From the NCBI RefSeq assembly GCF_009389715.1, contig NW_024067686.1, positions 340,501 through 404,500 on the forward strand: a DNA stretch of 64,000 bases, read 5' to 3'. This document shows positions 3,517-54,593 of this stretch, piece after piece (positions within the stretch are counted from its first letter, which is position 1; each line of letters starts with the position of its first letter). The notes under the pieces were generated by a model. That model saw only the letters and a program-made list of their open reading frames with translations, was not told the DNA's origin and searched no databases. The stretch comes from Phoenix dactylifera (lineage: Eukaryota > Streptophyta > Magnoliopsida > Arecales > Arecaceae). The position numbers were made by a program, and so were the translations under genes.

Positions 3517-3867
3517 TGTTGTCCAAGGTGACAAGCCAAGAGGGGGGGGGGGGGGGTGAATTGGTTTTTCTTAATTTTCGATTCCTTAATTATGTTAATT
3601 GATGAGTGAGTGATTTAGTTAATATAGATTAAGTGCAAATAGTGAAGTCAGAACAATACACAATACAAACAACAAGAAGTATAGTAGTTCGGTGCTCTCC
3701 TATGCACCTACGTCCACTCCCCAAGCGACCTCTTGGGAATTCACTATAATTCCGTGGATTACAGTTGGATTGTTTTCCAGGCTCACAATCCAAAAATCTT
3801 TACACTTGGTTTTCTGGGATCACCAAAAACCTATGTTGGTTTTACGGGCTCACCAACAAACCTTCAC
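3517..3867 (-). mobile_element. Partial Sirevirus 5-prime LTR
   Basis: Minus strand. The LTR ends in a C-run, CTCTTGG and ACA, as in the other two Sireviruses here. It retains three hairpins of the GAGC-loop type at 3767-3791, 3806-3826 and 3835-3857. The upstream part with TATA box and palindromes is absent; the match stops near 3867. Confidence 0.7.
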
Positions 3868-7427: not shown

Positions 7428-7608
7428 TGTGGAGTGATTGATTAAAACCCCGTTTGATTTTGATGAGCTCAAAGCATTTGAGTATATCGTGTGATTACTA
7501 ATGAATTCAATTGAGTGTTTCAGTGAAAATCCTGCTCAAGTGTTTCTAGACATGGTTTACAGTATTTTGGATAAGTTAAGAAGTCTGCTGAACCAATGTC
7601 TGAGACTC

Positions 7609-8431
7609 GAGTCGACTCCCGAGTTTCACGAGTCGACTCCAAGCGTATCAAGGTCACTGGCACGAGCTCGAGTCGACTCCTAATCAGTATGAGTCGACTC
7701 CGACTGAAAACAGACAGAAGGATAGAAGAGCAGTCTTTCAGATCTGAGATTCGAGTCGACTCCAGTGGAACGCGAGTCGACTCCCAGCGGTGCACAAAGA
7801 AAAAGTCAGAGAGTGTTTTATGGACTCTGAGATTCGAGTCGACTCCAGTGGAACGCGAGTCGACTCCCAGCGGTGCACAAAGAAAAAGTCAGAGAGTGTT
7901 TTATGGACTCTGAGATTCGAGTCGACTCCCGCATTACGCGAGTCGACTCCAAGATTGTGCGACCATCAACAGAGAAAACCATGTTACTGCCACTGAGATT
8001 CGAGTCGACTCCCAGACAGCTCGAGTCGACACCAAGACAAGCTTCACGTCAAAAGGCAGAAGACCAACTTTCGGAAACTGAGAGCCGAGTCGACTCCAAG
8101 GAAGTTCGAGTCGACTCCAAGACTGGATGAGCCAAAAGACAGAGAATCGGGAGTTCGGGCTCTGAGATTCGAGTCGACTCCCAGGACAGTCGAGTCGACT
8201 CGAGAGGGCAAAATTCAAATTTGTATCCACGGTCTACAGAGGAAAAGCCGACTCCAAAATTGCCAGGTCAGCGCCAGAAGTTGGCGAGTCGACTCCGGGC
8301 CAAGACGAGTCGACTCCCAGTCGTGACGGCAACTTTAATTCAAACTTGGAACAGTTGCCGAGTCGACTCCTGAAAAGCTTGAGTCGACTCCCGCTACAGC
8401 CGAGTCGACTCCTGATCGCGCGAGTCGACTC
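7609..8431. promoter_or_regulatory. Array of 22 GAGTCGACTC palindromes in 21-bp pairs (upstream LTR)
   Basis: The 10-bp palindrome starts at 7609, 7630, 7670, 7691, 7753, 7774, 7836, 7857, 7919, 7940, 8002, 8023, 8087, 8108, 8171, 8192, 8286, 8307, 8360, 8381, 8402 and 8422. Within pairs the spacing is 21 bp every time. Successive pairs from 7753 to 8171 recur every 83-85 bp. The last four sites step at 21, 21 and 20 bp. All lie upstream of the TATA-like box, consistent with a U3 enhancer. The site at 8023 has one mismatch. Confidence 0.85.
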
Positions 8432-8522
8432 CAACCCACCAACGGTCACATTGTCAGGCTGCGCAGAGTGTGCAGAACGGCCAGAAAAAGTGGAGTAACG
8501 GCTAGTTTCCGTGGGGGTTGGC

Positions 8523-8529
8523 TTAAATA
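8523..8529 (+). promoter_or_regulatory. TATA-like box of the Sire-A LTR
   Basis: TTAAATA in the context GGCTTAAATAGCC, about 90 bp after the last palindrome, conserved in the LTRs of both full-length Sireviruses. It would place the transcript start near 8555 and the hairpin array in the RNA leader. This is inferred; no transcript data are available. Confidence 0.5.
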
Positions 8530-8851
8530 GCCACAGAAGACTGTAGCAAAATAGAGAACATACATTCCACTCCAAGCATTCAAGTCTTCAAGCTTTGCAA
8601 GTGCTCTTCAACGAGAAAAAGGGGAGATCAGCATTTACTGCGCCACCAACTTCTCCCCAGCATTCAAAGCTTCCTCCTCCTACATTCAAGTCGATCACTC
8701 ATCCAAGAGGAGACCAGAGTCAAGAAGCCATTCCTCTACTTAAGCTTAAAAGCGTTTGAGGGCTTCTAAACTCATCCTTGAATATATTGTTTCATACCTG
8801 CTTTTGAGAAGCTTATTTTCTGTTTTCTTTCTACTACGTGTATTTACTTGG

Positions 8852-9045
8852 TTCAATCGGGGGATTGAATCAAAGGGAAAAAGGTTAGTTGGTGAGCCAG
8901 TTTTAAAACCAACGTGTGAAAGGGTTTGATTGTGAGCCCGGGAAAACAATCGGGGTTGGTTCTAGTCGGTGAGCCTGGGAAAACCGACCGAGTTCGTTGT
9001 TAGCTCGTAAAACAACAAGTTTGGTTGTGAGCTTGCAAAACAACC
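8852..9045 (+). promoter_or_regulatory. Hairpin array in the LTR leader with a constant GAGC loop
   Basis: A simple inverted repeat TTCAATC/GATTGAA (8852-8869) is followed by five hairpins. Their stems are GTTGGT/ACCAAC (8888-8913), GATTGT/ACAATC (8928-8951), GTCGGT/ACCGAC (8965-8988), GTTGT/ACAAC (8996-9016) and GGTTGT/ACAACC (9023-9045). Four of the loops begin GAGC and end AAA, for example GAGCCTGGGAAA; the fourth hairpin has TAGCTCGTAAA here but GAGCTCGTAAA in the 43990-54593 element. Stem sequences differ from one another but always pair, so the structure rather than the sequence seems conserved. Position suggests the R-U5 leader of the genomic RNA. Confidence 0.75.
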
Positions 9046-9314
9046 GGCTGTAATCCAAGGGGGTTATAGTGTATTCCCAAGAGAAACTTGGGGAGTGGAC
9101 GTAGGAGCAAGGGATAGCTCCGAACCACTATAAAACTTGTGTTTGTGATTGATTGTCTCTTCCTCTTCTCATTTCATATTGCTCACAGCACATAGTAATT
9201 AATTAAATAACTTGGCATAGTTTTTAATTAATCATCCATAACGTTTTAAATTATCCAAATTGTTTTAAAACCCAATTCACCCCCCCCTCTTGGGTTGTCT
9301 ATCTGGGCAACAGG

Positions 9315-9326
9315 TGGTATCAGAGC
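9315..9326 (+). other. Primer binding site of Sire-A
   Basis: TGGTATCAGAGC begins two bases after the 5-prime LTR. It is the standard complement to plant initiator tRNA-Met for Copia elements. The gag start codon follows 35 bases later. Confidence 0.9.
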
Positions 9327-9361
9327 CAAAAACTCTTCCACTCAAGAGTTAAAAGATCAAA

Positions 9362-11131
9362 ATGACAACCCCATTTGGATCTTCTCACATTGAGGGTCAG
9401 TCCACCCAAAGACCCCCTTTCTTCAATGGATCCGACTACTCATACTGGAAGGCTAGGATGAAAATATTCATCCAAGCCCAAGACTATGAGATGTGGACCA
9501 TTGTTGTAAATGGCCCATACATCCCATCCATATATATAGATGGTGTCAAGGTACCCAAACTAGAAACGGATTGGGATGAACATGACATGAGGAAGGCACA
9601 ATTAAACTCTAAAGCAATGAATGTCTTCTATTGTGCCTTAGACCGTAATGAATTCAATAGGATTTCAACTTGTAATTCAGCAAAAGAAATTTGGGACAGA
9701 CTTGAAGTGACCCATGAGGGCACGAATCAAGTCAAGGAATCCAAAATAAACATCTTGGTTCATAAATATGAACTATTTAAAATGGATTCAAATGAAACTA
9801 TCACATCCATGTTCACTAGGTTTACTGATATTGTCAATGGCCTAAAAAGCCTTGGCAAGAACTATACTAACAGTGAGCTTGTCAGGAAAATCCTTCGATG
9901 TCTACCGAGGTTGTGGGAAGCTAAAGTGACAGCGATCCAAGAAGCTAAAGACTTGAACAAGCTTCCACTTGAGGAGCTCCTTGGATCCCTGATGACTCAC
10001 GAACTCACCATGAAACAACACGAGGAAGAGTCTTCCCATAAGAAAAAGGTAATAGCTTTAAAATCTACTTCTTCTAACAAGGACTTATCTTGCAGCAGCA
10101 GCAGTGAAGAAGAAGAAGATGAGGAAGATGGTGGTGAGGCTCTTCTTGTGCGCAAATTCAAGAAATTCATCAACCACAAGAAGTCCTATCATCAAAGGAG
10201 AGGGCCCTCAAATTTCTACCGGAAGGACAAAGGTAAGGAAAGAGAAAACGAGGGGATTGGATGTTACGAGTGCAAGAAGCCGGGTCACATAAGAGCTGAA
10301 TGCCCCTTACTGAAGAAGGGGAGTAAGTACAAGAAGAAGAAAGCTCTTGTCACTACACTATCCGACTCCGACTCATCATCCTCCTCTTCTGACGAGGAAC
10401 AAGAAGAAAAGGCCAATTTCTGCTTCATGGCCAACGAAGACGAGGTAACTTCCGATACGCATCCTGATTTTTCTTTTGATGAACTTTATGATGCGTTCAA
10501 TGAATTAATGATTGAGTATAAGAATATAAATGTTAAAAACAGAGAACTAAAAGTAACTAATCAAACTTATATTCATAAGCATGATTCATTAATTAAGGAT
10601 AAAGATAATCTTACCAAAGAAAATCTAGAACTTAAGACAAGCAATCAACTTTTAATTAAGAAGACTAACACCTTAACTAAAGATAATGAAAAACTAACTA
10701 AGGAACTTTCAAACCATAAACAAGTCTTAAACAAGGATCTAACAAAAGAACTAAATGACTTAAAAACAGAAAATCAAACATTAACTAAAGAACTTAACAA
10801 ATACAAACCCTTAGTTGAAAAATTTTCATATAGTTCAGAAAAGTTAAACATGATACTAAATAGTCAACGTGCAGTATTTAATAAAGCAGGCTTAGGGTAC
10901 AAACCAAGGAATAAGCAAAAACTTCTTAGTAATTTCTTTGTTAAAGCTGGGGAAACAAAAACTAAGAAAATCACCTGTTTCTGTTGTGGAAATATAGGAC
11001 ATAAAGCAAATACATGTGACTATAGGAAAAGGAAAACTAAAAGAAAAATTAAAAGGGTATGGGTTCCAAAAGGAACCAACTTGACTAACCATGAAGGACC
11101 CAAGAAAACTTGGGTACCTAAGATGACATGA
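9362..11131 (+). CDS. gag: Gag polyprotein of Sire-A
   Basis: A 589-residue nucleocapsid/capsid protein that would form virus-like particles and package element RNA in the cytoplasm. The N-terminal part (about residues 15-240) matches the Copia gag domain (DUF4219/UBN2 type), with FFNGSDYSYWKARMKIF near the start. A CCHC knuckle CYECKKPGHIRAEC is at residues 301-314. Acidic and serine-rich stretches follow, then a long K/N/L-rich coiled-coil region (about 365-500). A second knuckle CFCCGNIGHKANTC is at 539-552. The start is the first ATG after the PBS. The TGA at 11131 ends it; pol lies in another frame that opens at 11145, so there is no overlap. It is intact as read. Confidence 0.9.
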   Translation: MTTPFGSSHIEGQSTQRPPFFNGSDYSYWKARMKIFIQAQDYEMWTIVVNGPYIPSIYIDGVKVPKLETDWDEHDMRKAQLNSKAMNVFYCALDRNEFNRISTCNSAKEIWDRLEVTHEGTNQVKESKINILVHKYELFKMDSNETITSMFTRFTDIVNGLKSLGKNYTNSELVRKILRCLPRLWEAKVTAIQEAKDLNKLPLEELLGSLMTHELTMKQHEEESSHKKKVIALKSTSSNKDLSCSSSSEEEEDEEDGGEALLVRKFKKFINHKKSYHQRRGPSNFYRKDKGKERENEGIGCYECKKPGHIRAECPLLKKGSKYKKKKALVTTLSDSDSSSSSSDEEQEEKANFCFMANEDEVTSDTHPDFSFDELYDAFNELMIEYKNINVKNRELKVTNQTYIHKHDSLIKDKDNLTKENLELKTSNQLLIKKTNTLTKDNEKLTKELSNHKQVLNKDLTKELNDLKTENQTLTKELNKYKPLVEKFSYSSEKLNMILNSQRAVFNKAGLGYKPRNKQKLLSNFFVKAGETKTKKITCFCCGNIGHKANTCDYRKRKTKRKIKRVWVPKGTNLTNHEGPKKTWVPKMT

Positions 11132-11144
11132 TTTGCTTGTGTAG

Positions 11145-14100
11145 GAGTGTCTTGCAGCCAAGGTCAACAAAAATTGCTGGTATTTGGATAGTGGCTGCTC
11201 AAGGCACATGACGGGTGATAAAGACCAATTTTTCACCCTTGAAGCTAAGAAGGGAGGTGTTGTGACGTTTGGAGACAACAACCAAGGTCACATCATTGGC
11301 ATTGGTAAAGTTCAAATCACCCCTTCTACTTTTATAGATAATGTTAGATATGTTGATGGTCTTAAACATAACTTGTTAAGCATTAGTCAATTATGTGATA
11401 AAGGATATGATGTTATGTTTAAACCATCACTATGTATTGTAACAAATCCTAATGATAATAGTTTGGTCTTTAAAGGGATTAGACGTGGAAATGTATATGT
11501 TGTAGACCTAGAAGATCTTGCAAAACATAACCAATGTCTAGTTGTAAATGAAACCAAAGAAAATGATGCTAGTTGGTTATGGCACCGTAAGTTAGGTCAT
11601 GCAAGCATGGACACAATAACTAAACTAGTTAAAAGAGACTCCGTGATAGGTTTGCCAAAATTAAAATTTGAAAAGAACAAAATCTGTGAAGCATGTCAAT
11701 TTGGCAAACAATCTAGGAATTCTTTTAAATCCATAAAATGTGTCTCTACCTCTAGGCCTCTAGAATTATTACATATGGACTTATTTGGTCCTACTAGAAC
11801 AACAAGCCTAGGTGGAAATAAATATGGTCTAGTTATAGTAGATGATTACTCTAGGTACACATGGGTCATGTTTCTAGCGCATAAGGATCAAGCATTTTCT
11901 ATGTTTAAGAAGTTCCACAAGGAAGTAACAAATGCTAGAGAATCCTCAGTTATAGCTATTAGAAGTGACCATGGTACCGAATTCGAAAATCAATTATTTG
12001 ATGAATTTTGTAGCAAAAAGGGGATAACCCATAATTTCTCAGCACCTAGGACACCACAGCAAAATGGAGTTGTTGAAAGGAAAAATAGAACACTAGAGGA
12101 AATGGCTAGAACGATGTTATGTGAAAGTAACCTCCCTAAGTATTTTTGGGGAGAAGCCATTAATACTTCTTGCCATATATTAAATAGAGTTCTATTAAGA
12201 CCCATCATAAAGAAAACACCATATGAACTGTGGAAAAACAGAAAACCAAAGGTTAACTATTTTCATGTTTTTGGATGTAGGTGTTTTGTACATAATAATG
12301 GGAAAGATAATCTAGGGAAATTTGACCCTAAATCTGATGAAGGAATATTCCTAGGTTATTCTACAACTAGTAAAGCCTATAGAATCTTTAATAAAAGAAC
12401 TCTAGTTATAGAAGAATCCATACATGTTGTTTTTGATGACTCTAGTGACATCTCATCTAGTAAGAAGGTTAATTTTGATGATGATATTGAAATACTTGAA
12501 GAAAAGATAGATGAGATGGGATTACGAGATGATAATCAAAAGTTGATTGAAGGAGAATCATCAAACCAAGAGCCTATAGTGGATCATGGGCTAACTAAAG
12601 CTTGGAGGTATGCTCACGGGCATCCTAAGGAACTAATTCTAGATGATCCATCACAACCGGTTAGGACTAGAGCATCCCTTAGGAATATGAATAATCATCT
12701 AGCCTTTGTTTCACACTTTGAGCCCAAACATATAGAAGAAGCCGAAAATGATGTAAATTGGATAAATGCAATGCAAGAAGAACTAAACCAATTTACTAGA
12801 AACAAAGTGTGGGATCTAGTAGAGAGACCTTCTGAATATCCAATTATTGGTACAAAATGGATATATAAAAATAAGCTAGATGAAAATGGAATTGTTATAC
12901 GGAATAAGGCTAGACTAGTAGCAAAGGGTTATAATCAAGAAGAAGGTATAGACTTTGATGAAACCTTTGCTCCCGTAGCTAGACTTGAGGCTATTAGACT
13001 ATTATTAGCATATGCATGCTCTAAAGATTTCAAACTATTTCAAATGGATGTAAAGAGTGCATTTTTAAATGGGTATATTAATGAGGAGGTGTATGTAGAA
13101 CAACCTCCTGGTTTCGAAAATCATCAATACCCTAATCATGTGTATAAACTAAACAAAGCACTTTATGGGTTAAAACAAGCACCTAGAGCATGGTATGAGA
13201 GACTTAGCAAATTCCTATTAGAACATGAATTCTCTAGGGGAAATGTAGACACAACATTATTTCTGAAAAGACAAAATAAGGATATGTTGTTAGTACAGAT
13301 TTATGTTGATGATATCATTTTCGGTGCCACTAACAATCGCCTCTGCGAAGAATTTGCTGATTTGATGCAGAGTGAGTTTGAAATGAGCATGATGGGAGAA
13401 CTGAACTACTTCCTCGGGCTTCAAATCAAACAATCTGAAGAAGGCATCTTCATCAATCAAGTAAAATATATCAAGGAGATGCTCAAGAAGTTTGATATGG
13501 AGGGAAACAAATCAATCAGCACCCCCATGAGCTCATCATGTAAGTTAGACCAAGATGAATCAGGTAAATCCGTCGATCAAAAACTTTATAGAGGTATGAT
13601 AGGTTCTTTACTGTATCTTACTGCAAGTAGACCTGATATTATGTTTAGTGTGTGCATGTGTGCTAGATATCAGGCTAATCCTAAAGAATCACACCTAGCT
13701 GCAGTTAAAAGAATCTTTAAATACTTAATAGGAACTAAGAACATAGGACTGTGGTACTCTAAAGAATCTAGCCTAAACTTAATAGGGTACACAGATTCAG
13801 ACTTCGCTGGATGTAAACTTGATAGAAAAAGTACCAGCGGGTCTTGTCAATTTCTAGGAGAAAACCTAATCTCATGGTTTAGCAAGAAACAAACTCGGTT
13901 GCATTATCCACTGCAGAAGCTGAATATGTTGCAGCCGGGAGTTGTTGTGCTCAAATCTTATGGATTAAACAACAATTAGAAGATTATGGCATTAAACAAG
14001 ATGAAATCCCCATTAATTGTGATAACACAAGTGCCATAAATCTAACTAAAAATCCAATTCAACACTCAAGAACTAAACACATTGAGATAAGACATCACTT

Positions 14101-14244
14101 CATAAGAGATCATGTATTGAATGGTGATGTGTCACTCCACTTTGTGTGTACTGATAATCAATTAGCAGATATTTTCACAAAACCCCTAAGTGAAGAGAGA
14201 TTTAGTGTGCTTAGAAGGGGATTAGGAGTGATTGATCCATCCTA
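11145..14244 (+). pseudogene. pol: Pol polyprotein of Sire-A with one frameshift
   Basis: Encodes protease, integrase, reverse transcriptase and RNase H in Copia order. Numbering from the TTG codon at 11184: protease DSG at 2-4; GAG-pre-integrase LWHRKLGH near 130; integrase triad D199, D262 and E298 (D-35-E spacing); reverse transcriptase [11 protein letters not shown] near 615 and catalytic YVDD at 707-710; RNase H YTDSDFAG near 870. The frame is lost near 13893-13897, where one base appears missing inside the conserved RNase H segment. The rest of RNase H continues in the next frame to a TAG at 14244. No in-frame ATG is obvious near the start, so translation probably depends on gag (readthrough or frameshift; inferred). 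Otherwise it is undamaged. Confidence 0.9.
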
Positions 14245-14807
14245 GTGGGAGTTACCACTAGATTAATTGATTTTGATGATGAGAATGAGGTTAAAAGAGA
14301 GTTTCTATTCAATGATCATCATATCAGTCCTTAATTAGGTGATTTTCCCTCATTTGGCGCGATTATAGCAAGAGTTTTAAGTGCGTGCCAAGGTTAGAGA
14401 CGACTCGAGTAAGTTTCAGAGCCGGCTCCTAAGGGGGAGTCGACTCGCGCATTTGCGGGAGTCGACTCGCAAAGCTGGCAGCAAAAGGGGAGTCGACTCG
14501 CGCATATTCTGGAGTCGACTCGAGGTCGAGTCGACTCGCGACTCAGGGGAGTCGACTCGCAGTCGGGATCCGACTTTTTAACCCTAGGTTTGTCGTTTCG
14601 CAAACACTTTTCCTCAAGCCGCCACTGTTCACAAAGCCCTAGAGCCGACTCCTAGGTCATCCCCGATCGTCTCCAAGCCTTTTTCCCGTCGATTCTTCGC
14701 CGGACATTGAGTTTCCATCCGTTCCTAGGTCATTTCCGGTCCGTCCCGAGCTTCCTCTGTCCGTCCTTCATCGTCCTCAAGGTATTTTTATTCCCGTTTA
14801 GGTCAAG
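14245..14807 (+). promoter_or_regulatory. Region between pol and ORF3 with a second palindrome cluster
   Basis: No gene. GAGTCGACTC occurs at 14437, 14459, 14490, 14512, 14528 and 14549, with pair spacings of 22, 22 and 21 bp. These copies are followed by G rather than C, unlike those in the LTR. The rest is a C/T-rich leader running to the ORF3 start, containing AG/GT-like sequence that could allow splicing to ORF3. A separate promoter or a spliced subgenomic RNA is possible; neither is shown. Confidence 0.6.
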
Positions 14808-16412
14808 ATGCCTCGTAAGGCCGTCGTTAGGAAGAGGTCCCGTCCCGCGGCCGTTCCCGAGCGGCGCTCCAAGGCGCGGCATGATCCCGCGAGGCAACCA
14901 CCTCCGGATCGTTCCCCGCCTAGGGAGGTTCATGTTAGGCCATTGGCCGGGAAGGCCGTCTCCACCGGGAGGTATGTCGATTTTGACTTCCTCTCCCGGG
15001 AAGGGTTCACCATAGGCGATAGGCTTAGAGCCCAGGGTCTAGAGTACTTCCTCACCTTGGACCTTCCCACCTATCCTGGCCTAGTTCAAGAGTTCTATAG
15101 TACCGTCCATCGGGGAGATGGAGGTATTGAGGGCACGGTATTAGGTGTCCCATTACGTGTCACGGAGGATCTCGTTGCCCATATCCTCCACCTCCCACTG
15201 GTAGGGGTAGCTCCTGCACATCCTGAGGATAGATTTGAGGCCCTTACGATCGTCTTAGGGCAGCCACCTCAGTCCCCCCTAGATGAGGTATCTGCTAGCT
15301 CACTTCCTATTGAAGTGAGAATCCTCTTGAGCATTCTATCCAGGTCCATCTTCCCTAAGACAGGAAGATTTGATTTTGTGAATGAGAGGGACCTAGCTAT
15401 TATGTCTTACATTCTTCAGGACACCCCGGTCAACTTCCCCAAGCTGATTTATAGGTATATGTGTGAGCCTTTAGATAGACCTAGGCTCTCCCTCCCATAC
15501 GGGATGATATTCACTCTCCTGTTTAGGCAGTACGAAATTTCCATTCCTGAGAGGGAACCCTCTCGTGCCTTGCGATGGACTGATCGCTTGGGTACGGGGA
15601 CCATGCACAGGATGGAATTTCGGAAGAAAGACGGGATCTGGGTTAGGAAGTCCACTCTCACTGCTCAGACCACCAGACCATCACCCAGTCCTGAGCCAGA
15701 CTCTGATTACCCAGACTCTCCACATCATCCAGACCTTCCATCCACTCCTCCTGCTCCTACCACCTCTGCCGGACCTTCCTCCTCAGCTCCACCATCTATG
15801 GAGGTCCGTATTGATCCAGAGCAGCTCCGAGAGCTGCGGCAGGAGATCATCCGAGATTTGAGGGACGAGCTGCTCCGGGAGCTCCGAGGTTCCGTGCCAG
15901 CTGCCACTCCTGCACCCACTCCTGCACCCACTCCATCCTCCGCATTGGTGCCATCCTTGACAGCCGTGACAGACATGACGGCTAAAGTGCGGGAAGAGAT
16001 ATATAATATCAGGGATTTGATGCAGGCCCAGTTCCGCAACATGAGGGAGATCAAGAGCACCACTCGACAGTTTCGAGAGGAGATAGGCCGTGACATGCAC
16101 ACCACTACCGAGGGGGCCGAGCGCTTGTCGAATGTGATTGTCGGCAAGCTGGACGCACTTCAGACCTCAGTGACTGGGCTTCAGACGTCGGTGACTGAGC
16201 TCTCCACTATGCACAGCAGAGCCACCTCGTCTATCATCACACAGCTTAGCCATGTCACAGAGGCAGTCGCCCTCCTCATGGAGCGGAGCAGATTGGGAGG
16301 AGGAGCCACATCCTCCAGAGGAGGAGACGCATCCTCGAGAGGAGGAGCTACATCCTCGAGAGGAGGAGCTACATCCTCGAGAGGGGGAGCTACATCCTCG
16401 AGGAGGACATAG
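14808..16412 (+). CDS. ORF3 of Sire-A, putative plant transposon protein domain
   Basis: A 534-residue frame in the sense direction after pol, where Sireviruses may carry an extra, sometimes env-like, gene. Residues about 45-270 form a compact domain (GRYVDFDFLSREGF, LVQEFYSTVHRG, IYRYMCEPLDR) resembling the domain annotated in databases as putative plant transposon protein (PF20167-like; recalled, not searched). A Pro/Ser-rich linker covers about 285-325, then two charged coiled-coil-like stretches (about 325-350 and 390-490). The C-terminus is a GGATSSR repeat encoded by a 21-bp DNA repeat. No signal peptide or membrane helix is visible, which argues against an envelope protein. Codon use is more GC-rich than gag or pol, suggesting separate acquisition. 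Function is unknown. Confidence 0.75.
   Translation: MPRKAVVRKRSRPAAVPERRSKARHDPARQPPPDRSPPREVHVRPLAGKAVSTGRYVDFDFLSREGFTIGDRLRAQGLEYFLTLDLPTYPGLVQEFYSTVHRGDGGIEGTVLGVPLRVTEDLVAHILHLPLVGVAPAHPEDRFEALTIVLGQPPQSPLDEVSASSLPIEVRILLSILSRSIFPKTGRFDFVNERDLAIMSYILQDTPVNFPKLIYRYMCEPLDRPRLSLPYGMIFTLLFRQYEISIPEREPSRALRWTDRLGTGTMHRMEFRKKDGIWVRKSTLTAQTTRPSPSPEPDSDYPDSPHHPDLPSTPPAPTTSAGPSSSAPPSMEVRIDPEQLRELRQEIIRDLRDELLRELRGSVPAATPAPTPAPTPSSALVPSLTAVTDMTAKVREEIYNIRDLMQAQFRNMREIKSTTRQFREEIGRDMHTTTEGAERLSNVIVGKLDALQTSVTGLQTSVTELSTMHSRATSSIITQLSHVTEAVALLMERSRLGGGATSSRGGDASSRGGATSSRGGATSSRGGATSSRRT
16303..16405 (+). repeat. 21-bp tandem repeat at the end of ORF3
   Basis: About five copies of a unit like GGAGGAGCTACATCCTCGAGA, encoding GGATSSR. 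Copies differ at a few bases. Confidence 0.85.
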
Positions 16413-17187
16413 ATGATTTTGAGTTGTGTTTTATCTTCTTTTGTATTGTTTTTGCCTTACTTATAGTATGCTCAAATGTATTCACCTTCATATCAATACA
16501 ATGAGTAGACATCTTATCTTTATTTCTGTGCCAATTGACTGTGCCATTTGATGTTTGATTGTGCCATTTGTGCCATTGATTGTGTGTGTGATTACCTCCT
16601 TTTTGATATGATGACAAAAAGGGGGAGAAATATGTATAAAATATGTAATAAGGGGAGAAATATGGTTAAAATATGTAAAAGAACTCTTAAAAACACACAC
16701 AAATTTGTTCTAAGTGGATTCGGTACCTCGAGGCTCATTATCTCTCTTTTGGGGCTCCTAATGGAGTAATCTCCAGAATCTATTCAAGGGATATTCGGAG
16801 ATTAGCTTAATCGTACTCAAGAACAAATTGACAGATTTTCCCTCTAAAAACAAAAAATTCAGTTCAAAAATTTCAAAGCATTAAAAGGAAATTCAGAAAA
16901 CTAAAACTAGTTGAATGCATATGTTGAGGGGGAGAATCTGAATTTTAATCAAGATAAATCATTGATAACATATAAGCCAAACAATTGATTGCATAATATG
17001 GAGGCTTATATAATTCCAAATGAAAGGGGGAGCTTTAACTCCGAAATTTAAATGTTTCACACCTTTCAAACTTGGATAAATTAAATTTTCAGACATTTGA
17101 ATTCACTTGTGAATTTTATTTCATTATTTATTGAGCAATTCATTTTACGTATACTCAAAGTTTTGTCATCATCAAAAAGGGGGAGAT
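16413..17187 (+). other. Non-coding 3-prime region with multiple polypurine tracts
   Basis: No gene. Purine tracts occur at 16616-16630 (AAAAAGGGGGAGAAA), about 16648-16658, 16925-16934, 17023-17032 and finally 17175-17186, immediately before the 3-prime LTR. Multiple tracts here are a Sirevirus hallmark. The last is the likely plus-strand primer. Confidence 0.85.
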
Positions 17188-19072
17188 TGTGGAGTGATTG
17201 ATTAAAACCCCGTTTGATTTTGATGAGCTCAAAGCATTTGAGTATATCGTGTGATTACTAATGAATTCAATTGAGTGTTTCAGTGAAAATCCTGCTCAAG
17301 TGTTTCTAGACATGGTTTACAGTATTTTGGATAAGTTAAGAAGTCTGCTGAACCAATGTCTGAGACTCGAGTCGACTCCCGAGTTTCACGAGTCGACTCC
17401 AAGCGTATCAAGGTCACTGGCACGAGCTCGAGTCGACTCCTAATCAGTATGAGTCGACTCCGACTGAAAACAGACAGAAGGATAGAAGAGCAGTCTTTCA
17501 GATCTGAGATTCGAGTCGACTCCAGTGGAACGCGAGTCGACTCCCAGCGGTGCACAAAGAAAAAGTCAGAGAGTGTTTTATGGACTCTGAGATTCGAGTC
17601 GACTCCAGTGGAACGCGAGTCGACTCCCAGCGGTGCACAAAGAAAAAGTCAGAGAGTGTTTTATGGACTCTGAGATTCGAGTCGACTCCCGCATTACGCG
17701 AGTCGACTCCAAGATTGTGCGACCATCAACAGAGAAAACCATGTTACTGCCACTGAGATTCGAGTCGACTCCCAGACAGCTCGAGTCGACACCAAGACAA
17801 GCTTCACGTCAAAAGGCAGAAGACCAACTTTCGGAAACTGAGAGCCGAGTCGACTCCAAGGAAGTTCGAGTCGACTCCAAGACTGGATGAGCCAAAAGAC
17901 AGAGAATCGGGAGTTCGGGCTCTGAGATTCGAGTCGACTCCCAGGACAGTCGAGTCGACTCGAGAGGGCAAAATTCAAATTTGTATCCACGGTCTACAGA
18001 GGAAAAGCCGACTCCAAAATTGCCAGGTCAGCGCCAGAAGTTGGCGAGTCGACTCCGGGCCAAGACGAGTCGACTCCCAGTCGTGACGGCAACTTTAATT
18101 CAAACTTGGAACAGTTGCCGAGTCGACTCCTGAAAAGCTTGAGTCGACTCCCGCTACAGCCGAGTCGACTCCTGATCGCGCGAGTCGACTCCAACCCACC
18201 AACGGTCACATTGTCAGGCTGCGCAGAGTGTGCAGAACGGCCAGAAAAAGTGGAGTAACGGCTAGTTTCCGTGGGGGTTGGCTTAAATAGCCACAGAAGA
18301 CTGTAGCAAAATAGAGAACATACATTCCACTCCAAGCATTCAAGTCTTCAAGCTTTGCAAGTGCTCTTCAACGAGAAAAAGGGGAGATCAGCATTTACTG
18401 CGCCACCAACTTCTCCCCAGCATTCAAAGCTTCCTCCTCCTACATTCAAGTCGATCACTCATCCAAGAGGAGACCAGAGTCAAGAAGCCATTCCTCTACT
18501 TAAGCTTAAAAGCGTTTGAGGGCTTCTAAACTCATCCTTGAATATATTGTTTCATACCTGCTTTTGAGAAGCTTATTTTCTGTTTTCTTTCTACTACGTG
18601 TATTTACTTGGTTCAATCGGGGGATTGAATCAAAGGGAAAAAGGTTAGTTGGTGAGCCAGTTTTAAAACCAACGTGTGAAAGGGTTTGATTGTGAGCCCG
18701 GGAAAACAATCGGGGTTGGTTCTAGTCGGTGAGCCTGGGAAAACCGACCGAGTTCGTTGTTAGCTCGTAAAACAACAAGTTTGGTTGTGAGCTTGCAAAA
18801 CAACCGGCTGTAATCCAAGGGGGTTATAGTGTATTCCCAAGAGAAACTTGGGGAGTGGACGTAGGAGCAAGGGATAGCTCCGAACCACTATAAAACTTGT
18901 GTTTGTGATTGATTGTCTCTTCCTCTTCTCATTTCATATTGCTCACAGCACATAGTAATTAATTAAATAACTTGGCATAGTTTTTAATTAATCATCCATA
19001 ACGTTTTAAATTATCCAAATTGTTTTAAAACCCAATTCACCCCCCCCTCTTGGGTTGTCTATCTGGGCAACA
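17188..19072 (+). repeat. Sire-A 3-prime LTR
   Basis: Matches 7428-9312 at a constant offset of 9760, including the palindrome array (17369-18191) and the hairpin array (18612-18805). It ends GGGCAACA and is followed by the target duplication ATTAG. Confidence 0.95.
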
Positions 19073-45419: not shown

Positions 45420-45616
45420 TTGATTCAATCGGAGGATTGAATCAAGGGGATTAAGGTTGGTTGGTGAGCCGGTTTAAAACCAACGAGTGTAAGGGTTTGA
45501 TTGTGAGCTCGGGAAAACAATCGGGGTTGGTTCTAGTCGGTGAGCCTGGGAAAACCGACCGAGTTCGTTGTGAGCTCGTAAAACAACAAGTTCGGTTGTG
45601 AGCTTGCAAAACAACC
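45420..45616 (+). promoter_or_regulatory. Hairpin array of the Sire-B LTR leader
   Basis: A long perfect inverted repeat around GATTCAATC/GATTGAATC is followed by the same five GAGC-loop hairpins as in Sire-A (45460-45616). Here hairpin four has the full loop GAGCTCGTAAA and hairpin five a 7-bp stem CGGTTGT/ACAACCG. The equivalent in the 3-prime LTR is 54150-54306. Confidence 0.75.
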
Positions 45617-45901
45617 GGCTGTAATCCAAGGGGGTTATAGTGAAATTCCCAAGTGAGACTTGGGGAGTGGACGTAGGAGCAAGGGTTAGCTCCGAACCAC
45701 TATAAAACTTTGTGTTTGTAGTGCATTGTCTCTCATCTTCTTCCCCACACATTACTCACAGCACTTAGCTTTAATTAAATAACTGGCTATAGTATTTAGT
45801 TAATCATCCACAAAGTTTTAATTAGCTAAGTTAATTTAAAAACCCAATTCACCCCCCCCCCCTCTTGGGTTGTCTATCTGGGCAATATACTGGGCAACAA
45901 G

Positions 45902-45961: not shown

Positions 45962-47092
45962 ATGACAACTCAAATAGATAGTTTTCTAGGAGAAGGACAA
46001 TCAATTGATACACCTCCACTATTTAATGGCATAAACTATACACATTGGAAAATACGCATGCGCATTTTTATACAATCAGTTGATTATAGTTTATGGAGCA
46101 TTATAGTCAATGGAACACACACAAACACTAGTCATAATGAGAAAATGGCTCAACAAAATTCAAAAGCCATGAACCTACTATATTGTGCACTAGATAGGAA
46201 TGAGTTTAATTGCATATCTTCTTGCATGACTGTTAAAGAAATATGGAATATGCTTGAAGACAAATATGAATGCACTAACAAATCTGAAACATCATGTGTA
46301 GAAGGAGAGCAGTATCATATTGAAAATCCGTGCTTGGTGGCACAAGAGGTACATGCTGAAACTGAAAGCAATTTTACATTTGATGAACTCCATGATGCCT
46401 TTTCTGATTTGTATCAAGAACATAAGAAACTCATTTGTAAAAACAAGAACCTGAAGAATGAAAAGAAAATCCTAGTAAATGAAACTGAAATCTTAATTAA
46501 GGAAAATAAAGAACTAAATCAGAAAAACCAACTTCTCACTGAAAGCCATGATAAACTTAAGAAAAATAATGAATTGCTTTCAGAAGATAACAAAAGATTA
46601 ACTAAAGAAGTTGACAAATTAAAACCTGTTGTTGAAAGATTTACTTTGAGCTCTGAAAAGTTGAATCTAATGATAAATAATCAAAGAGCTGAATTTGATA
46701 ATATTGGATTGGGATGTCAACCTTGGTACACCCAAAAATCTTTCAATAATATGTTTGTTAAAACAGTTTCTAATCATTTTAAAATAGATTCCTATAATGC
46801 TGATAAACAGGAACAAAGATTATGCAAAATCACTTCTGTTCCTAAATCTGTACATTGCAAATTTGATAAACCTAAAAGGCAAAAACAAAAAACTGAAGGG
46901 TTATCTACCACTCATGTTAAATCCATGTTCGTTAAATTTAATAAGAAGATGCAGAAATACACTTCTTGTAGTCCTAAAATCTGCAAGCCTATGGACAAAA
47001 TAGCTATTAAGAAAATATGGGTTCCAAAAGGAACAATAATAGCTAACCTGCAAGGACCCAAAAGAGCTTGGGTTCCTAAGTTGAAAATCTAA
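45962..47092 (+). CDS. gag: Reduced gag of Sire-B without zinc knuckles
   Basis: A 376-residue frame. Residues 1-105 match the N-terminal capsid domain of Sire-A gag (LFNGINYTHWKIRMRIFIQS, AMNLLYCALDRNEFNCISS). Where Sire-A continues with the rest of the capsid domain and the first CCHC knuckle, Sire-B jumps after YECTNKSE directly to the acidic segment and the coiled-coil region (NFTFDELHDAFSDL, about residues 138-230). The second knuckle is also missing, although the basic C-terminal tail with IWVPKG and RAWVPK is kept. The internal loss is about 240 residues compared with Sire-A. The frame is undamaged. It may co-assemble with intact gag, or be a passenger. Confidence 0.8.
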   Translation: MTTQIDSFLGEGQSIDTPPLFNGINYTHWKIRMRIFIQSVDYSLWSIIVNGTHTNTSHNEKMAQQNSKAMNLLYCALDRNEFNCISSCMTVKEIWNMLEDKYECTNKSETSCVEGEQYHIENPCLVAQEVHAETESNFTFDELHDAFSDLYQEHKKLICKNKNLKNEKKILVNETEILIKENKELNQKNQLLTESHDKLKKNNELLSEDNKRLTKEVDKLKPVVERFTLSSEKLNLMINNQRAEFDNIGLGCQPWYTQKSFNNMFVKTVSNHFKIDSYNADKQEQRLCKITSVPKSVHCKFDKPKRQKQKTEGLSTTHVKSMFVKFNKKMQKYTSCSPKICKPMDKIAIKKIWVPKGTIIANLQGPKRAWVPKLKI

Positions 47093-50000
47093 ATATTTTC
47101 TGCAGGTGTGTCTAGCACTCAAGGCTCCAACAAAATATGTTAAATTGGACATTGGGTGCTCTAGACATATATTAAAGAGTGAAACTTAAAATATACTTAA
47201 GAAAAGTGACTAAAATGGAAGAAATAATGAAATTAGTAATTCTTGCATCCTCTCATACTGAAATTGTTTTATTAGTTGATTAAAGTATGAATTGCATGTG
47301 TTGATCAATTTTGTGATATAGAAAATACTTTTGGAAATATAATCAAATCACTTCATTTTATAGGATACTTTACTCACTATTGGATAAAGTTGCTAAATGA
47401 TTAATCATTATTAAGATTAATTCTATGAATTCTCTATATGCTTGATTGAGAGTTTTTATCCATGGCATTATTGTTTATTGATCATAGATATGATAATGTG
47501 TATTTGGTATGCTTTTGAATATATGCACTATGAATACCAAGATTAAAGAAACCATCCTTGGCACATAGAATCAACTCATGCTAGTATGTACTTAATCTCA
47601 AAAGACCTTGCCATAGGCTTACTTAGATTATCTACTTAAAGGTCAAAGTTTTGCTATGCATGCTAACTAAGGAAACAAACAAAAATCACTTCTAAATCTA
47701 AAGATGTTGTTTCCATCTCTAAGTTTTCAAAAGCTTACATTGGATTTGTTCTTGGAAAATAAAACTGAAGTATTTTTCTGTATTTACTAAATCTTGTAAA
47801 AGCGCTTCAAATGAAAAAGGTTTCCAAACTGTGAAGATCATGGCACAGTATTGAAAACCAAAATCCTGATTAAGGTTATACAGAAAATAATATTAAATTC
47901 AATTATTTCAGCTCCAAGGACATCATAAGTAAAATAGGGTTAATAGAATTCTTGAAGAAATGAAAAAGACAATTGTGTATGATAGTCATCTACTTAAATA
48001 ATTTTTTTTAGGCTATCATCACTGCTTGTCATACATATGACTTCTATTAGATCTATTTTTGATGAAAACTTCTTTTGATCTTCTGAAAAATAGAAAATGA
48101 ACCATTGCATATCTCTCATATTTTTCAGTCGTACATACTATGCTTGATATGGTCTTAAGAAAATAATGCCAAATCTGATAAAGATATTTCTATTCTTGGA
48201 TATCATTCATCAAGCAATGCATATAGAACATTCAATGAAAAGATTCGAGTTGTAGAAATATTAATTCATTTTGTTCCTTATGAGATTAATGATTTATTAT
48301 CAAGATACTAAAATTAAATTATATATGTATATGGTTAATCTTTTACATATAACAATCTGAAAATATGTTAATAATTAGAACCAAGTTGAGTTTTTCAGAA
48401 ATGCACTTAATGAAGAAAAATTGATGACTACTAAAAGACTAAATCAAGAAAAGATCTTGATGAAATTCTTGCATGATTTGAAGTAAAGATCACCATTATC
48501 ACTTGCTTGCTTTATGAGCTTTATATTCTATCAAATGAATGTGTAGAATGAACTCCTATGTGGTTATTTCATTAAAAAAAGGGAATCTATGTAAAATAAC
48601 CACCTTATTTGAAAACATTCATTACAAATATGATAAAGCAATTTGTGATTTGGAACAAGCATTAAAAGCATGATAGAATTATCATTTTATCATATACCTA
48701 ATAGACCAGATTGTGTGATCATTATGTGCCCTTGTGCAAGACTTCAATCTAACTTTAATTAATCATATTTTATTGATAACAAATACGTCATAATCTGAAT
48801 TTTGATACAAACAAACGTTTAAGATAAGTTGATTAAAACTTAGTTAACACATCTTATTGATAATTATCTTAAGCAAATAGAATCTAAACTAAATTGATTT
48901 GACCTTGATAAATCTGTTTATTGCCTCACATGCTTGTCCTTGAACTATCTTGGTTAATGAATCTATCTCTTTAGTTCAAGTGATATGTGCTTGCTTATAT
49001 TTAGGAAATCTCTTGAGTAAAGTGACTCAACATGCAACTATTGTCATATCTCATATTGAGTCATCTAATTAAAAATATATATATATATGTTGGATGAATG
49101 CTTTGTATTTTAAAGAAACTAATGACCTTCCTTCAAGAAAGAAAAATGAGAAATTTCAACTTGAAGGATATCTTCATGTAAGATACACTAAACATTCACA
49201 TGCAAACAAGAGAGAGGATCTTCTTCAGCCAAAAGTTCACACATAAGAAATCTAGTTTGGCTTGAAGAACATATAATGAATAGGTAATTTTAGATACCTT
49301 TCTCACAAATTAATTGAGCAAAGTCAATAACTTAAATCCTATTATGGCATGATTAAATTCTTTAATTATTAATTTTTGATATCATGTCTATATGTGTATT
49401 GACTGACTTATACTTTTAGAAATTGTTTCATGGTTTGCTCAATCTAAAATATTTCTATGGCTGTATCATAACCATGAAATACACAAGTATATGATTAAAA
49501 CTCTGATTTAGAATGACTTGTGAGAAGCTACGAATTCTTGGGCATAATGAAAATAGTGTTTGCATGATATACCTCTATACGATACATTTCATTATTTCTT
49601 TATTCTGCTCTTTCATGTAAATTACTTGAGAATAACAAAAAGAGAGAGAGATAAAGAAAAGAAAATGGACATTGTTCAAGAGATGAAAAATCTGAGAAAA
49701 GGCAAATACTTCAATCTTAAGGAAAAGCAAAACAAGTATAATATATTCGGCACATTTGGAAGGAATAAAATCCATAATTAATTACACTTAAACAGAGAAA
49801 ATTTGAAGTAAACATCTTAACCTTTCTATATTGCTCATCATAGGGATGGTGCCAATGGGGAGGCTAGTGGTAGTACCCGGCACTATTTGACCCAACTATT
49901 CGGTGTAGGGCATATTAGGGATGGCACAAGAGGGAGGCTAGTGGTAGTACCTCGTGCCCCTTCCCAACTCCACCGGATAGGGAGCAAATAGAGTATAGAA

Positions 50001-52700
50001 CATAAGAAAGTTAAAAATGAAAGACAAAGTAAATGAAAGTATATAAGAAGAATCAAGTCAAATTTTTAATCACTTGAAAACACACTTTAAGGATGAAATC
50101 AGTGCAAAATTATATTTAAATAAGGAAAGTTTATTTGAAAAGAATTGATTTTGATCCTTGATATGCTTGTTCTTATTATTTTAATGCATGACTTAATACA
50201 TAATATATCTTGCATGTGGCATGATGTCTTGAATTATGGGTTCTCAATATTTTGTAAATGCTTCATACTTGGACAATTTGATTGAATGTTTGAAATACTA
50301 CATAACATCTTTTGTTTGGTATTATTGAAAAGAAATTTTCAGATTTGTCGTTAACAATCATCGTTAAAACCTGAAAGTTGAATAAATTTGTAAAAAGGAG
50401 AAGAGAAGGATATCTCTATTTAGGCAAAATGAATTGAGTTGTTTTTATCCTTCAACTTGATTAACTTTGGTATATAATGTTCTAACTCATACCAAAACTC
50501 AACATAAATACAAATACTCTGAATATGCTCTTACATGTTTGAAATATGTGTTTTCAAACGTAATGATTTAAGATGAGCTACAATCTGGAAGATACATATC
50601 TCAAATTATGATTTTGAAAGCCTCAATTGAAAATCCTATGTAATTCAGAATCTGATTTTGTATAAAAGCTTAAACTCCATATGATTTCTAAATAAAATCT
50701 TAATGGAAGAAAAACAGAATTAATTTTGATGCCTTTGGTTGATAGCTCCGATACGCATCCGAAACATATCATTTCTTATCTTCAAAGTATACTAATATTG
50801 GCCTAAATGATGTGTCTTTCAATGATCTTAATTGCAAACAAATATTTTTAAATATATGAGTTTATTTTGATATTAAAAAGATTTATTATGCTTCATGTAT
50901 CCATTGCAGAAAAACTATAATTAAGAAATTGAGTTCTATAAATAGATATACTTCAATGATCATCTATATGTTTTTCTCTCCTACATTATTAAAGACTTCC
51001 ATCAATAGAGTGAATGATCTTAAAACTAGAAATATTTCAGTTCACTCAAATGACTCTAAAAGAAAGAAAATGTAAATGCTTTTGAAAGAAATTGAGCTTC
51101 AAATGAATCATTTTCTGATTAATATTTCTATACATTTTCTCTAAGATTAAGAGAAAGCATAACTTGTTCGTAAAGGATTAGAAAGAGTAATTACTACAAA
51201 CTTTGGAATAATACTAGATTACTCTACATTCTCGATATTACAGAATTTCAGTGTTATTCACGTTTATCACTAAAATCTGAAATTCAACAATTTAAAATGA
51301 TTAAAGAAGAATGCATCTTTTGAGGGGGAGCTTTAGATATTCAGTATCCTATCCCAAAGACACTTTATTTTGATGCATACCTTGATTTTTATGGATTGAT
51401 TTTGATGAACCTCCTTATATTACAATACTTGCTTTAATTATAAGTTTATACCTTGAGATGAGTTCTATAAAGGTTGTCTTGTCTCAAACCTTGAGTCTCA
51501 TGAAGATAAGCTGAAATATATTTTTGAGATTGACAATCTTATTGAACATTATCTTAGGATTCTAAACTCTTAAATGGAATGATCAATTGAGGGGGAGAAA
51601 GAAAATTTCAGAAGGAGAGGTCTTATGGAACTTAATTACATAAATCTATAGGAGAGGGAAAGAATACTAAATGAAAAGTGATCCTAATACTCTCCAATAT
51701 GTATCATCTGAAATTTAAATCTGAAAATCTTTATGATACACCTTGAGGCGTGTTATTTGGTTAGTATATCTTATGCATCACTCATGAACCAAATTACAAA
51801 TCTTAAGAGCCTCTAATTTAATAAAACAGGGGGAGAACAATGTATTAAATTTTCTTGAGTATCTCTTAGAAAATCTATTTTGAACCTCACTAATGAGTTT
51901 TAATTGGCTTACTCTTTAGAACTTCTATTTTGTGCCAATTCATTATTTTATGTATCAAATTATGCTTATTTTCTAAAGGAATAAAAGAAAGTCTTTAAAA
52001 GAGCTCAAAGATGTATCAAAAATTGCATAAACTCATATTTTGGTATTTGTGCCCCAATGCTCTTATTATCATATAAGAACTTTGAAGTCATTAAGAATTA
52101 ATGATCCAACATGATGATATGTTTTTCCAAATATATAAGTTTTGATCTTTTACTCTGAAAATTAATTAAATTGCTCTCATGTTGATAAAATACTTAATAG
52201 ATTGGGCAAAAGGTCTTAAATGAACAAGCTTTCATACTTAGTGAAGAGAGGTTAGATTTTCACTCATATTTTTTCTTGAATATCATTTGTGGTACTTCTT
52301 GAATTAACCTAAGGAAGATTCCACCTACACTTGATTAGAAAACTATCTGTGGTATCAAATTAAAAAACCTCTTGAATTCACACTCGATGTGTTCTGCTCT
52401 GATCTTTGTACTTAATGTTTCACTATCTTTTTGATGTTGTCAAAAAGGGGGAGAAATATCTAAGTATATGCTATATACTCAGAATGCTTTATTACTTTGA
52501 AGTGAATATAAATCAGCTTAAAATTTAAATATGTTGATTGTGTTAAGCTGATTAAATCTAAAGCATTATCATGAAGTATGTTTTTTTTTAAATATATATG
52601 TTTTCTACTTCATGCAACTTAGCTATGTATTACTTCTAGAAAACAATATCTTTTATATTGCATATACTCCAAGTTTTGTCATCATCAAAAAGGGGGAGAT
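47093..52700 (+). other. Decayed internal region of Sire-B with polypurine tracts
   Basis: AT-rich, with no long frame. Short patches still echo Copia pol (for example the segment after 47100 resembling the start of the protease region), so it looks like a heavily decayed pol plus 3-prime region. A duplicated GC-richer segment lies at 49839-49983. Polypurine tracts occur at 51321-51330, 51589-51600, 51837-51847, 52442-52455 and 52687-52700, the last adjoining the LTR. Confidence 0.65.
49839..49983 (+). repeat. Imperfect tandem duplication inside Sire-B
   Basis: Two copies about 76 bp apart share AGGGATGG and GGAGGCTAGTGGTAGTACC. They differ in between. No function can be assigned. Confidence 0.6.
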
Positions 52701-54593
52701 TGATGACCCAAAGATTGATTCATAGATTGATTTTGATGATCACAAAACCTTGAAGTATAGATACTAATATTTATGTTGCAAGGAGAAAGATATTTATTTT
52801 GCAAGGAACATAGCAAGTTGGGAGAACACAAGAAGGCCTCCAAAGCTCTCAAGTTGGAAGAAAGCTACAATTTATTGGCCCAAGCTTAAAGTTCAAAGGA
52901 TTCAAATTGGAGGAGTAAAATCAAAAGAAAAATTCAAAAGAACAGTCTTCGAGTCGACTCCAGTGGAATTCGAGTCGACTCCGGAGAAGTATGAGTCGAC
53001 TCCGGAGAAGTATGAGTCGACTCCTAGGAGTCACAGGCAGAAAAGTCAGAGAGCAGTTTTCGGGTCTGAGATTCGAGTCGACTCCAGTGGAACGCGAGTC
53101 GACTCCGATGGTTGGTAGGTCGACTCCAAAGAAAGCAAGAGTCGACTCTCAGCGGAACACAAGGAAAAAGTCAGAGAGCATTTTTGGGACTCTGAGATTC
53201 GAGTCGACTCCCGCATTGCACGAGTCGACTCCGAGACTCCGCGACCATCAACAGACAGAAAACCAAGTTACTGCCTCTGAGATTCGAGTCGACTCCCAGA
53301 CAGCTCGAGTCGACTCCAAGACAGCTTCACATCAAAAAGGCAGAAGACCAAGTTTCGCAAACTGAGAGCCGAGTCGACTCCAAGGAAGTTCGAGTCGACT
53401 CCAAGACTGGATGAGCCAAAAGACAGAGAATCGGGAGTTCGGGCTCTGAGATTCGAGTCGACTCCCAGGACAGTCGAGTCGACTCGAGTGGACAAAATTC
53501 AAATTTGGATCCACGGACTACAGAGGATGAGCCGACTCCAAAATTGCCAGGTCAGCGCCAGAAGTTGGCGAGTCGACTCCGGGTCAAGACGAGTCGACTC
53601 CCAGTCAAGACAGCAACTTTAATTCAAACTGGGAACAGTTGCCGAGTCGACTCCGGAAAAGCTCGAGTCGACTCCTGATCGCGCGAGTCGACTCCAACCC
53701 ACCAACGGTCACATTGTCAGGCTGCGCAGAGTGTGCAGAACGGCCAGAAAAAGCAGAGTAACGGCTAGTTTCCGTGGGGGTTGGCTTAAATAGCCACAGA
53801 AGACTGTAGCAAGGCAGAGAACACACATTCCACTCCTAGCATTCAAGTCTTCAAGCTCTCTAAGTGCTCTTCAACGAGAAAAAGGGAAGATCTGCATTTA
53901 CTGCTCCACCAACATCTTCCCAGCATTCAAAGCTTCCTCCTCCTGCTTTCAAGTCGATCACTCTTTCAAGAGGAGACCGGAGTTCCAGAAGCCACACCTC
54001 TTCACCATCTTAAAAGCGTTTGAGGGCTTCTAACTCCTTTACGATTATATTGTTTTAAATCTGCTTTTTGAGAAGCTATTTTCTGTTTTCTTCTATCTCG
54101 TGTATTTACTTGATTCAATCGGGAGATTGAATCAAGAGGATTAAGGTTGGTTGGTGAGCCGGTTTAAAACCAACGAGTGTAAGGGTTTGATTGTGAGCCC
54201 GGGAAAACAATCGGGGTTGGTTCTAGTCGGTGAGCCTAGGAAAACCGACCGAGTTCGTTGTGAGCTCGTAAAACAACAAGTTCGGTTGTGAGCTTGCAAA
54301 ACAACCGGCTGTAATCCAAGGGGGTTATAGTGAAATTCCCAAGTGAGACTTGGGGAGTGGACGTAGGAGCAAGGGTTAGCTCCGAACCACTATAAAACTT
54401 TGTGTTTGTAGTGCATTGTCTCTCATCTTCTTCCCCACACATTACTCACAGCACTTAGCTTTAATTAAATAACTGGCTATAGTATTTAGTTAATCATCCA
54501 CAAAGTTTTAATTAGCTAAGTTAATTTAAAAACCCAATTCACCCCCCCCCCCCCCCTCTTGGGTTGTCTATCTGGGCAACATACTGGGCAACA
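52701..54593 (+). repeat. Sire-B 3-prime LTR
   Basis: 1893 bp. Compared with the 5-prime LTR it lacks one 21-bp unit (TGCTACAGCC plus one palindrome) and has four more C before CTCTTGGG; a handful of single-base differences exist elsewhere. It is followed by target duplication TTATG. Confidence 0.95.

Follow-up and report, generated by a model that had tools for sequence, protein, structure and literature searches.

A tandem array of short hairpins with one shared loop motif and differing stems, followed at once by three further hairpins, lies in the putative 5′ RNA leader of a Sirevirus-type Copia retrotransposon of Phoenix dactylifera, and the paired changes in its stems make it very probable that the leader carries an RNA structure under selection. 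The array is larger than first described: its range of two to nine units among leaders of the same genome, and the three-hairpin module downstream of it, are new to this analysis. We propose that array and module together would act as one cis-acting RNA module in the 5′ leaders of several Sirevirus families.

Within the window (the whole stretch of 64,000 nt analysed here), the array belongs to an element referred to below as A, the relevant features of which are these:

7428-19072, plus strand: element A, a Sirevirus-type Copia element with identical LTRs
7428..9312, plus strand: 5′ LTR of element A, identical to the 3′ LTR at 17188-19072
8523..8530, plus strand: TATA-like string TTAAATAG, which precedes the array by about 360 nt; element B has the same string at -569 relative to the module
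9318..9326, plus strand: Sirevirus-type primer binding site (PBS) TATCAGAGC, by the definition of PMC2829016
9362..11131, plus strand: gag open reading frame with a CCHC zinc knuckle, starting at the first ATG after 8127

Element A has the Copia gene order, with a gag that carries a zinc knuckle, an integrase and a reverse transcriptase. Its PBS TATCAGAGC and a poly-C signal ahead of the LTR end mark it as a Sirevirus, as does, in both A and B, the PPT AGGGGGAG followed by AT/TG. The Sirevirus PBS, PPT, poly-C integrase signal, palindromic boxes and TATA are defined in the available text of PMC2829016, where the boxes lie upstream of TATA in 13 of 21 elements, with one exception to their CGG-CCG core. 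The U3 of A (7600-8432) is crowded with GAGTCGACTC palindromes, which may be Sirevirus-type repeat boxes but lack the CGG-CCG core typical of these. The identical LTRs indicate a probably recent insertion. Of the genome matches to 8852-9045 that were scored (40, out of 2002 first-look candidates in a 773-Mb genome), 29 are identical across all 194 bases. After pol, an extra open reading frame (14808-16412) occupies an envelope-like position and has a weak Pfam match, Transposase_32, just below the cutoff. The window also holds element B, whose interior (46000-52000) is AT-rich at 27-30% GC vs 35% and more in A, and, on the minus strand, the remnant of a third family, C. Sireviruses make up about one fifth of the maize genome, according to the accessible part of PMC10760457.

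The hairpins of the window were located as follows:

8848..8873, plus strand: separate hairpin with a GGGG loop, immediately before the array and not one of its units; also in B
8888..8913, plus strand: array hairpin 1, stem GTTGGT/ACCAAC
8928..8951, plus strand: array hairpin 2, stem GATTGT/ACAATC
8965..8988, plus strand: array hairpin 3, stem GTCGGT/ACCGAC
8996..9016, plus strand: array hairpin 4, stem GTTGT/ACAAC, loop TAGCTCGTAAA
9023..9045, plus strand: array hairpin 5, stem GGTTGT/ACAACC
18648..18805, plus strand: the array repeated in the 3′ LTR of A
45460..45617, plus strand: five-hairpin array in the 5′ LTR of element B
54150..54307, plus strand: five-hairpin array in the 3′ LTR of element B
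3834..3858, minus strand: family C remnant hairpin GTTGGT/ACCAAC
3806..3826, minus strand: family C remnant hairpin TTGGT/ACCAA with a GATC loop, equal to a unit in the C copy L112
3765..3793, minus strand: family C remnant hairpin TTGGATTGT/ACAATCCAA

Most of what the initial annotation had reported of these hairpins is borne out, namely the five stems of A and their range, the two arrays of the element it called Sire-B (here located at 45460-45617 and 54150-54307), and three hairpins in the minus-strand remnant; those of A recur in its 3′ LTR. The interval it had given, 8852..9045, does hold all five hairpins of A, but it starts inside the separate hairpin at 8848-8873. Its constant GAGC loop captured a shared motif and was too narrow, as hairpin 4 of A has TAGC and the middle remnant loop GATC, and the 14-base loop of hairpin 1 of A, GAGCCAGTTTTAAA, departs from the loop form that had been claimed, GAGCNNGNAAA. 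Perfect hairpins (stem of 5 bp or more, loop of 9-15) with a GAGC...AAA loop number 18 on the plus strand and 2 on the minus strand of the 64 kb, all inside arrays and none elsewhere. Dinucleotide shuffles of 8852-9050 never produced a hairpin with a GAGC or TAGC...AAA loop (0 of 2000 shuffles, vs five observed), and five perfect hairpins with any loop were reached in 2 of 2000.

With more families included, the constant loop is better written GANCYYGNAAA than GAGC. Among 20 distinct 11-base loops, the first base is G in 16 and the second A in 19, the third is free, the fourth is C in all 20, the fifth and sixth are Y in 19 and 20, the seventh is G in 19 and the eighth is free, followed by AAA; positions 1, 2, 4 and AAA are partly imposed by the rule used to select units, positions 5 to 7 are not. 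The longer loops, of 12-15 bases and in many cases from upstream units, often retain GAGCC and a later GG. C4 with G7, or CC with GG, could close a small inner stem flanked by purine-rich strands.

The stems carry the main evidence. Units were picked by loop length, loop ends (the first four bases loosely, the last three as AAA) and a closing GT/AC, with the register set by the nearest GT where GT repeats. This selection looks only at the loop and the two closing pairs and so leaves pairs 3 to 6 unconstrained; in 55 units from 11 leaders of one genome they are Watson-Crick in 55, 55, 54 and 46 cases, respectively. That is 210 of 220 cells, vs a mean of 141.4 and a maximum of 182 when 3′ arms were permuted within leaders (0 of 10,000 permutations matched), a comparison that ignores relatedness among units; among 40 distinct units, with relatedness likewise ignored, 151 of 160 cells are Watson-Crick vs a permutation maximum of 112. 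For A alone, 29 of 30 pairs form, a value reached by 1 of 120 permutations, namely the true order. Sliding the partner by 1-3 positions lowers pairing from 0.95 to 0.09-0.55 (44 distinct units). The 13 distinct arm pairs have G-C, T-A or A-T at pair 3 and T-A or C-G at pair 4; pair 5 is T-A, G-C or A-T, plus one A-C, and pair 6 is G-C, C-G, A-T, T-A, G-T, T-G or C-A. The last unit shows double changes between clades: GGTTGT/ACAACC in A, GGATTGT/ACAATCC in C and GGTAGT/ACTACC in a further family, D. A-like leaders repeat a given stem at the corresponding place, and their orthologous stems are mostly unchanged, so that diversity lies mostly between array positions and between clades, and independent double changes are few. 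Compensatory changes across units and across families thus support the selection on RNA structure that the initial annotation had proposed.

Three hairpins follow the array directly:

9047..9070, plus strand: module hairpin I (CTGTAATC...GRTTATAG)
9075..9093, plus strand: module hairpin II (CCCAAR...YTTGGG)
9094..9129, plus strand: module hairpin III (GTGG A[C/T]GTA GGWGC...GCWCC GAA CCAC), with an inner A[C/T]GTA/GAA loop

Their stems also change in pairs: in hairpin II, G-C becomes A-T in D-type leaders, and in hairpin III, A-T and T-A are switched between families, while the module loops vary in sequence and length. Mismatches are outermost in hairpin II of leaders L144 and L148, and hairpin III of L148 has GA instead of GAA; hairpin I of D was read by pattern, not from the MAFFT alignment. 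A G-T pair in hairpin I is preserved in A and B and in all 30 C copies, which suits an RNA of this strand. Compared with D-type leaders, the LTR of A has two long matches, one from 8992 to 9156 or slightly beyond (the last two hairpins and the module) and one at the LTR end, which carries the integrase signal; the remaining matches of A to the distant leaders L125, L144 and L147 are short and repeat-type. The region between promoter and LTR end thus contains an island that aligns across distant families roughly as well as the integrase signal does. In the inner loop of hairpin III (9099-9104 in A), five of the 11 leaders (L142+, L148+, L147-, L144+ and L125+) have ATG-TAG, a possible start-stop upstream reading frame, and the other six, A and B included, read ACG-TAG. 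A second TATA-like string, CTATAAAA, lies within the module in A and B, where the C copies shown have CTATACT. D-type leaders carry two other hairpins upstream of the array, CTTGTTCCA/TGGAACAAG and about TAGGC/GCCTA (about 930-1000 in L125; also L144). Rfam 15 gave one match in 8500-9400, in gag and far under the gathering score, and none in L113 and L125. In viral contigs, relatives of an RT piece were not found; the 14-base module core matches 103 viral stretches, and by eye the match does not run on into the module in any of them.

The number of array units differs widely among leaders. Family C copies hold up to five (30 places fetched of 4785 first-look candidates, one being the window's own). 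Arbitrary DNA was sampled as 17 contig starts of 10 kb from the same genome, and 7 of these 17 stretches hold eight leaders with the downstream module, all eight with at least two units upstream of it. This survey excluded module matches with neither units nor GAACCA, and one loose match (L142:3979), having no units, was taken as chance. Seven of its leaders were usable for counting, L143 being cut by a contig end; family D was met by chance, in L125. The counts are 5 in A, 5 in B, 8 in L142+, 4 in L142- (whose first hairpin, with a loop longer than 15, is uncounted), 8 in L148, 5 in L155, 2 in L147, 2 in L144, 2 in L125, 9 in L153 and 5 in L113, a range of 2-9. These are 11 of 41 leaders, the rest being the truncated L143 and 29 of the 30 C-family copies; L113 was the sole C copy kept, because old copies decay. 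Near-identical tandem units in C copies and in L153 show duplication. In the 17 stretches, the module core lies within 420 nt of all four PBS-like sites with a poly-C signal and of none of the five other PBS-like sites.

From TATA-like strings and the absence of ATGs, we infer that the array lies in the RNA leader. In A it falls between the TATA-like box and the PBS, and in leaders generally the module has a TATA-like string on its upstream side and the LTR end or PBS on the other. Such strings occur 507-720 nt ahead of the module in A, B, L142+, L142-, L148, L155, L147, L144 and L125 and at 520 nt in L113; L153 has several candidates. Element A contains no ATG between position 8128 and the start of gag at 9362, where 9 (Markov) to 14 (base composition) ATGs would be expected in the last 806 nt alone, and B is ATG-free from 44817 to its likely gag ATG at 45962. 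Across the 30 C-family places, ATGs per 50-nt bin average about 36 at -1400 to -501 relative to the module, 3.0 at -450 to +199 and 37 beyond, with the array at about -210 to -60. Additional ATGs occur at -516, +38, +56 and +308 in L142+ and at +54 and +75 in L148+. The placement in a 5′ leader made by the initial annotation is therefore supported by upstream TATA-like strings and by the lack of ATGs in the leaders of A and B, with ATGs depleted in C. In the available part of PMC3601003, a very short R is inferred for its Sire set, whose LTRs are much shorter; with an R of that kind the array would belong to U5. Strings of AACGGCTAGT right before the TATA-like string are common to A (8490-8510) and C copies (some 625 nt ahead of the module); AACGG is a core of MYB type.

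Predicted folding is strongest in the module and modest in the array. The module window (9040-9139) has a z of -4.0, the strongest of the A leader, and array windows of A are mostly at z 0.4 to -2.3, little better than shuffles. The strongest window of B (45420-45519, z -3.8) lies around the extra hairpin and the first unit, and 8870-9140 taken entire reaches z -2.6, with 2 of 200 shuffles equally good. In a partition function of the whole leader, array stems of A have pairing probabilities of 0.01-0.09, or 0.01-0.24 with the span limited to 120, which counts against their folding without a partner. Among predicted duplexes of the A leader with initiator tRNA-Met (scored without shuffles), the best is formed by 8621-8650, ahead of the PBS window, and B differs from it by one base in this string.

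A fixed loop, free stems and a varying copy number suggest a repeated recognition site. Each hairpin could be a weak binding site presenting the same loop, with several sites acting together, and the likeliest partner would be the element's own Gag, whose CCHC zinc knuckle we infer to be a natural reader of the array. Array and module would then mark full-length RNA for packaging into virus-like particles. Packaging through multivalent Gag binding is the reading we prefer, tentatively and at somewhat less than an even chance; the packaging, dimerisation or translation signals of the initial annotation all stay proposals, and dimerisation through the loops is a weak one, given a 6-base palindrome in 4 of 10 loops. 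It is conceivable, if doubtful, that the array represents an undescribed class of packaging signal, in which tandem hairpins of variable number, with one loop and freely drifting stems, would serve as a multivalent tag read by Gag, and array length would tune packaging. If so, array length could separate or connect competing Sirevirus families within one genome.

The main rival, which we regard as rather unlikely, is that the module controls translation of gag: the leader would be scanned from the cap, and the hairpins would slow or shunt ribosomes, or would recruit them or a host factor. The ATG-free leaders of A and B and the depletion in C fit this, and are relevant only if ribosomes travel the leader, but the same absence also fits a leader that needs merely to be passable, and L142+ and L148+ carry additional ATGs. 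A start-stop pair such as ATG-TAG is of a kind known to stall plant ribosomes, and five leaders have it in hairpin III, but the remaining six of 11 have ACG-TAG there.

A role in reverse transcription, through tRNA contacts beyond the short PBS or dimerisation by kissing loops, appears improbable. Pairing to the T arm of initiator tRNA-Met is predicted for the loop of hairpin 3 at a level that 0 of 300 shuffles equal, but the other nine loops are unexceptional (18 to 118 of 300 shuffles as good), and tRNA pairing as a general property of the loops was rejected, being exceptional in 1 of 10. The palindromes in 4 of the 10 loops, a set without those of B, would suit kissing, but they are not conserved, and a conserved self-complementary loop was not found among the ten tested.

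Two further explanations are very unlikely. In the first, the arms would act in DNA as transcription-factor sites. They do resemble plant sites, ACCAAC the MYB AC boxes and ACCGAC the DRE core. Sirevirus LTRs also have palindromic boxes, upstream of the TATA box in the available text of PMC2829016, but the array follows its TATA-like string. A factor site would function without a complementary stretch 11-15 bases from it, yet here the two arms change together, and the conserved G-T pair of hairpin I also speaks against a DNA element. In the second, there would be no function: the arms would be kept complementary as copying proceeds, by inverted-repeat correction or by template switching, in which a single event can yield a double change, and tandem duplication, evident in the near-identical units of C copies and L153, would multiply the units. 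Such processes would not hold the loop fixed while stems vary, preserve module stems with variable loops or explain a stretch conserved across distant LTRs. A decoy for U1 at a 5′ splice site (GGTGAGC in A) was rejected because D-type units read TTAGC or TTCACT, and an upstream CACCAAC complementary to some 5′ arms was set aside, being predicted unpaired in A and differently placed in C.

Packaging by Gag, the preferred reading, can be set beside known systems. Retroviral packaging signals consist of repeated short stem-loops with an exposed loop in the 5′ leader, recognised by a Gag with CCHC knuckles. The array resembles them in having several short hairpins with exposed loops in a 5′ leader and a CCHC Gag; it differs in its 2-9 tandem units, its one loop motif of 11-15 bases, its place inside the LTR and its occurrence in a plant Copia element. 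Searches of the open-licence literature for Sirevirus packaging (by title) and leader structure found no description of how Sireviruses choose RNA for packaging or of their leader structure, and printed sequence fragments of the array or module were not found in open-licence papers. With its fixed loop, the covarying leader module presents a clear-cut RNA for probing, and it might serve as a marker by which Sireviruses are detected and classified. The element BARE is comparable in being a Copia element of plants with mention of conserved signals for packaging and for dimerisation; the text concerned (PMC3735527) uses neither the word hairpin nor the word stem-loop. The Sirevirus motifs of Bousios 2010 (PMC2829016) are features of the same genus, among them the PBS, PPT, poly-C signal, palindromic boxes and TATA, but array and module are not listed in its available text, and the boxes there lie upstream of the TATA box. 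Small RNA viruses have degenerate packaging signals at multiple sites, as described for STNV-1, a plant satellite virus, in the accessible part of PMC6475782; the array is like these in being a set of short degenerate signals in one RNA with a proposed role in packaging, and unlike them in that its units stand in tandem, in one retrotransposon leader.
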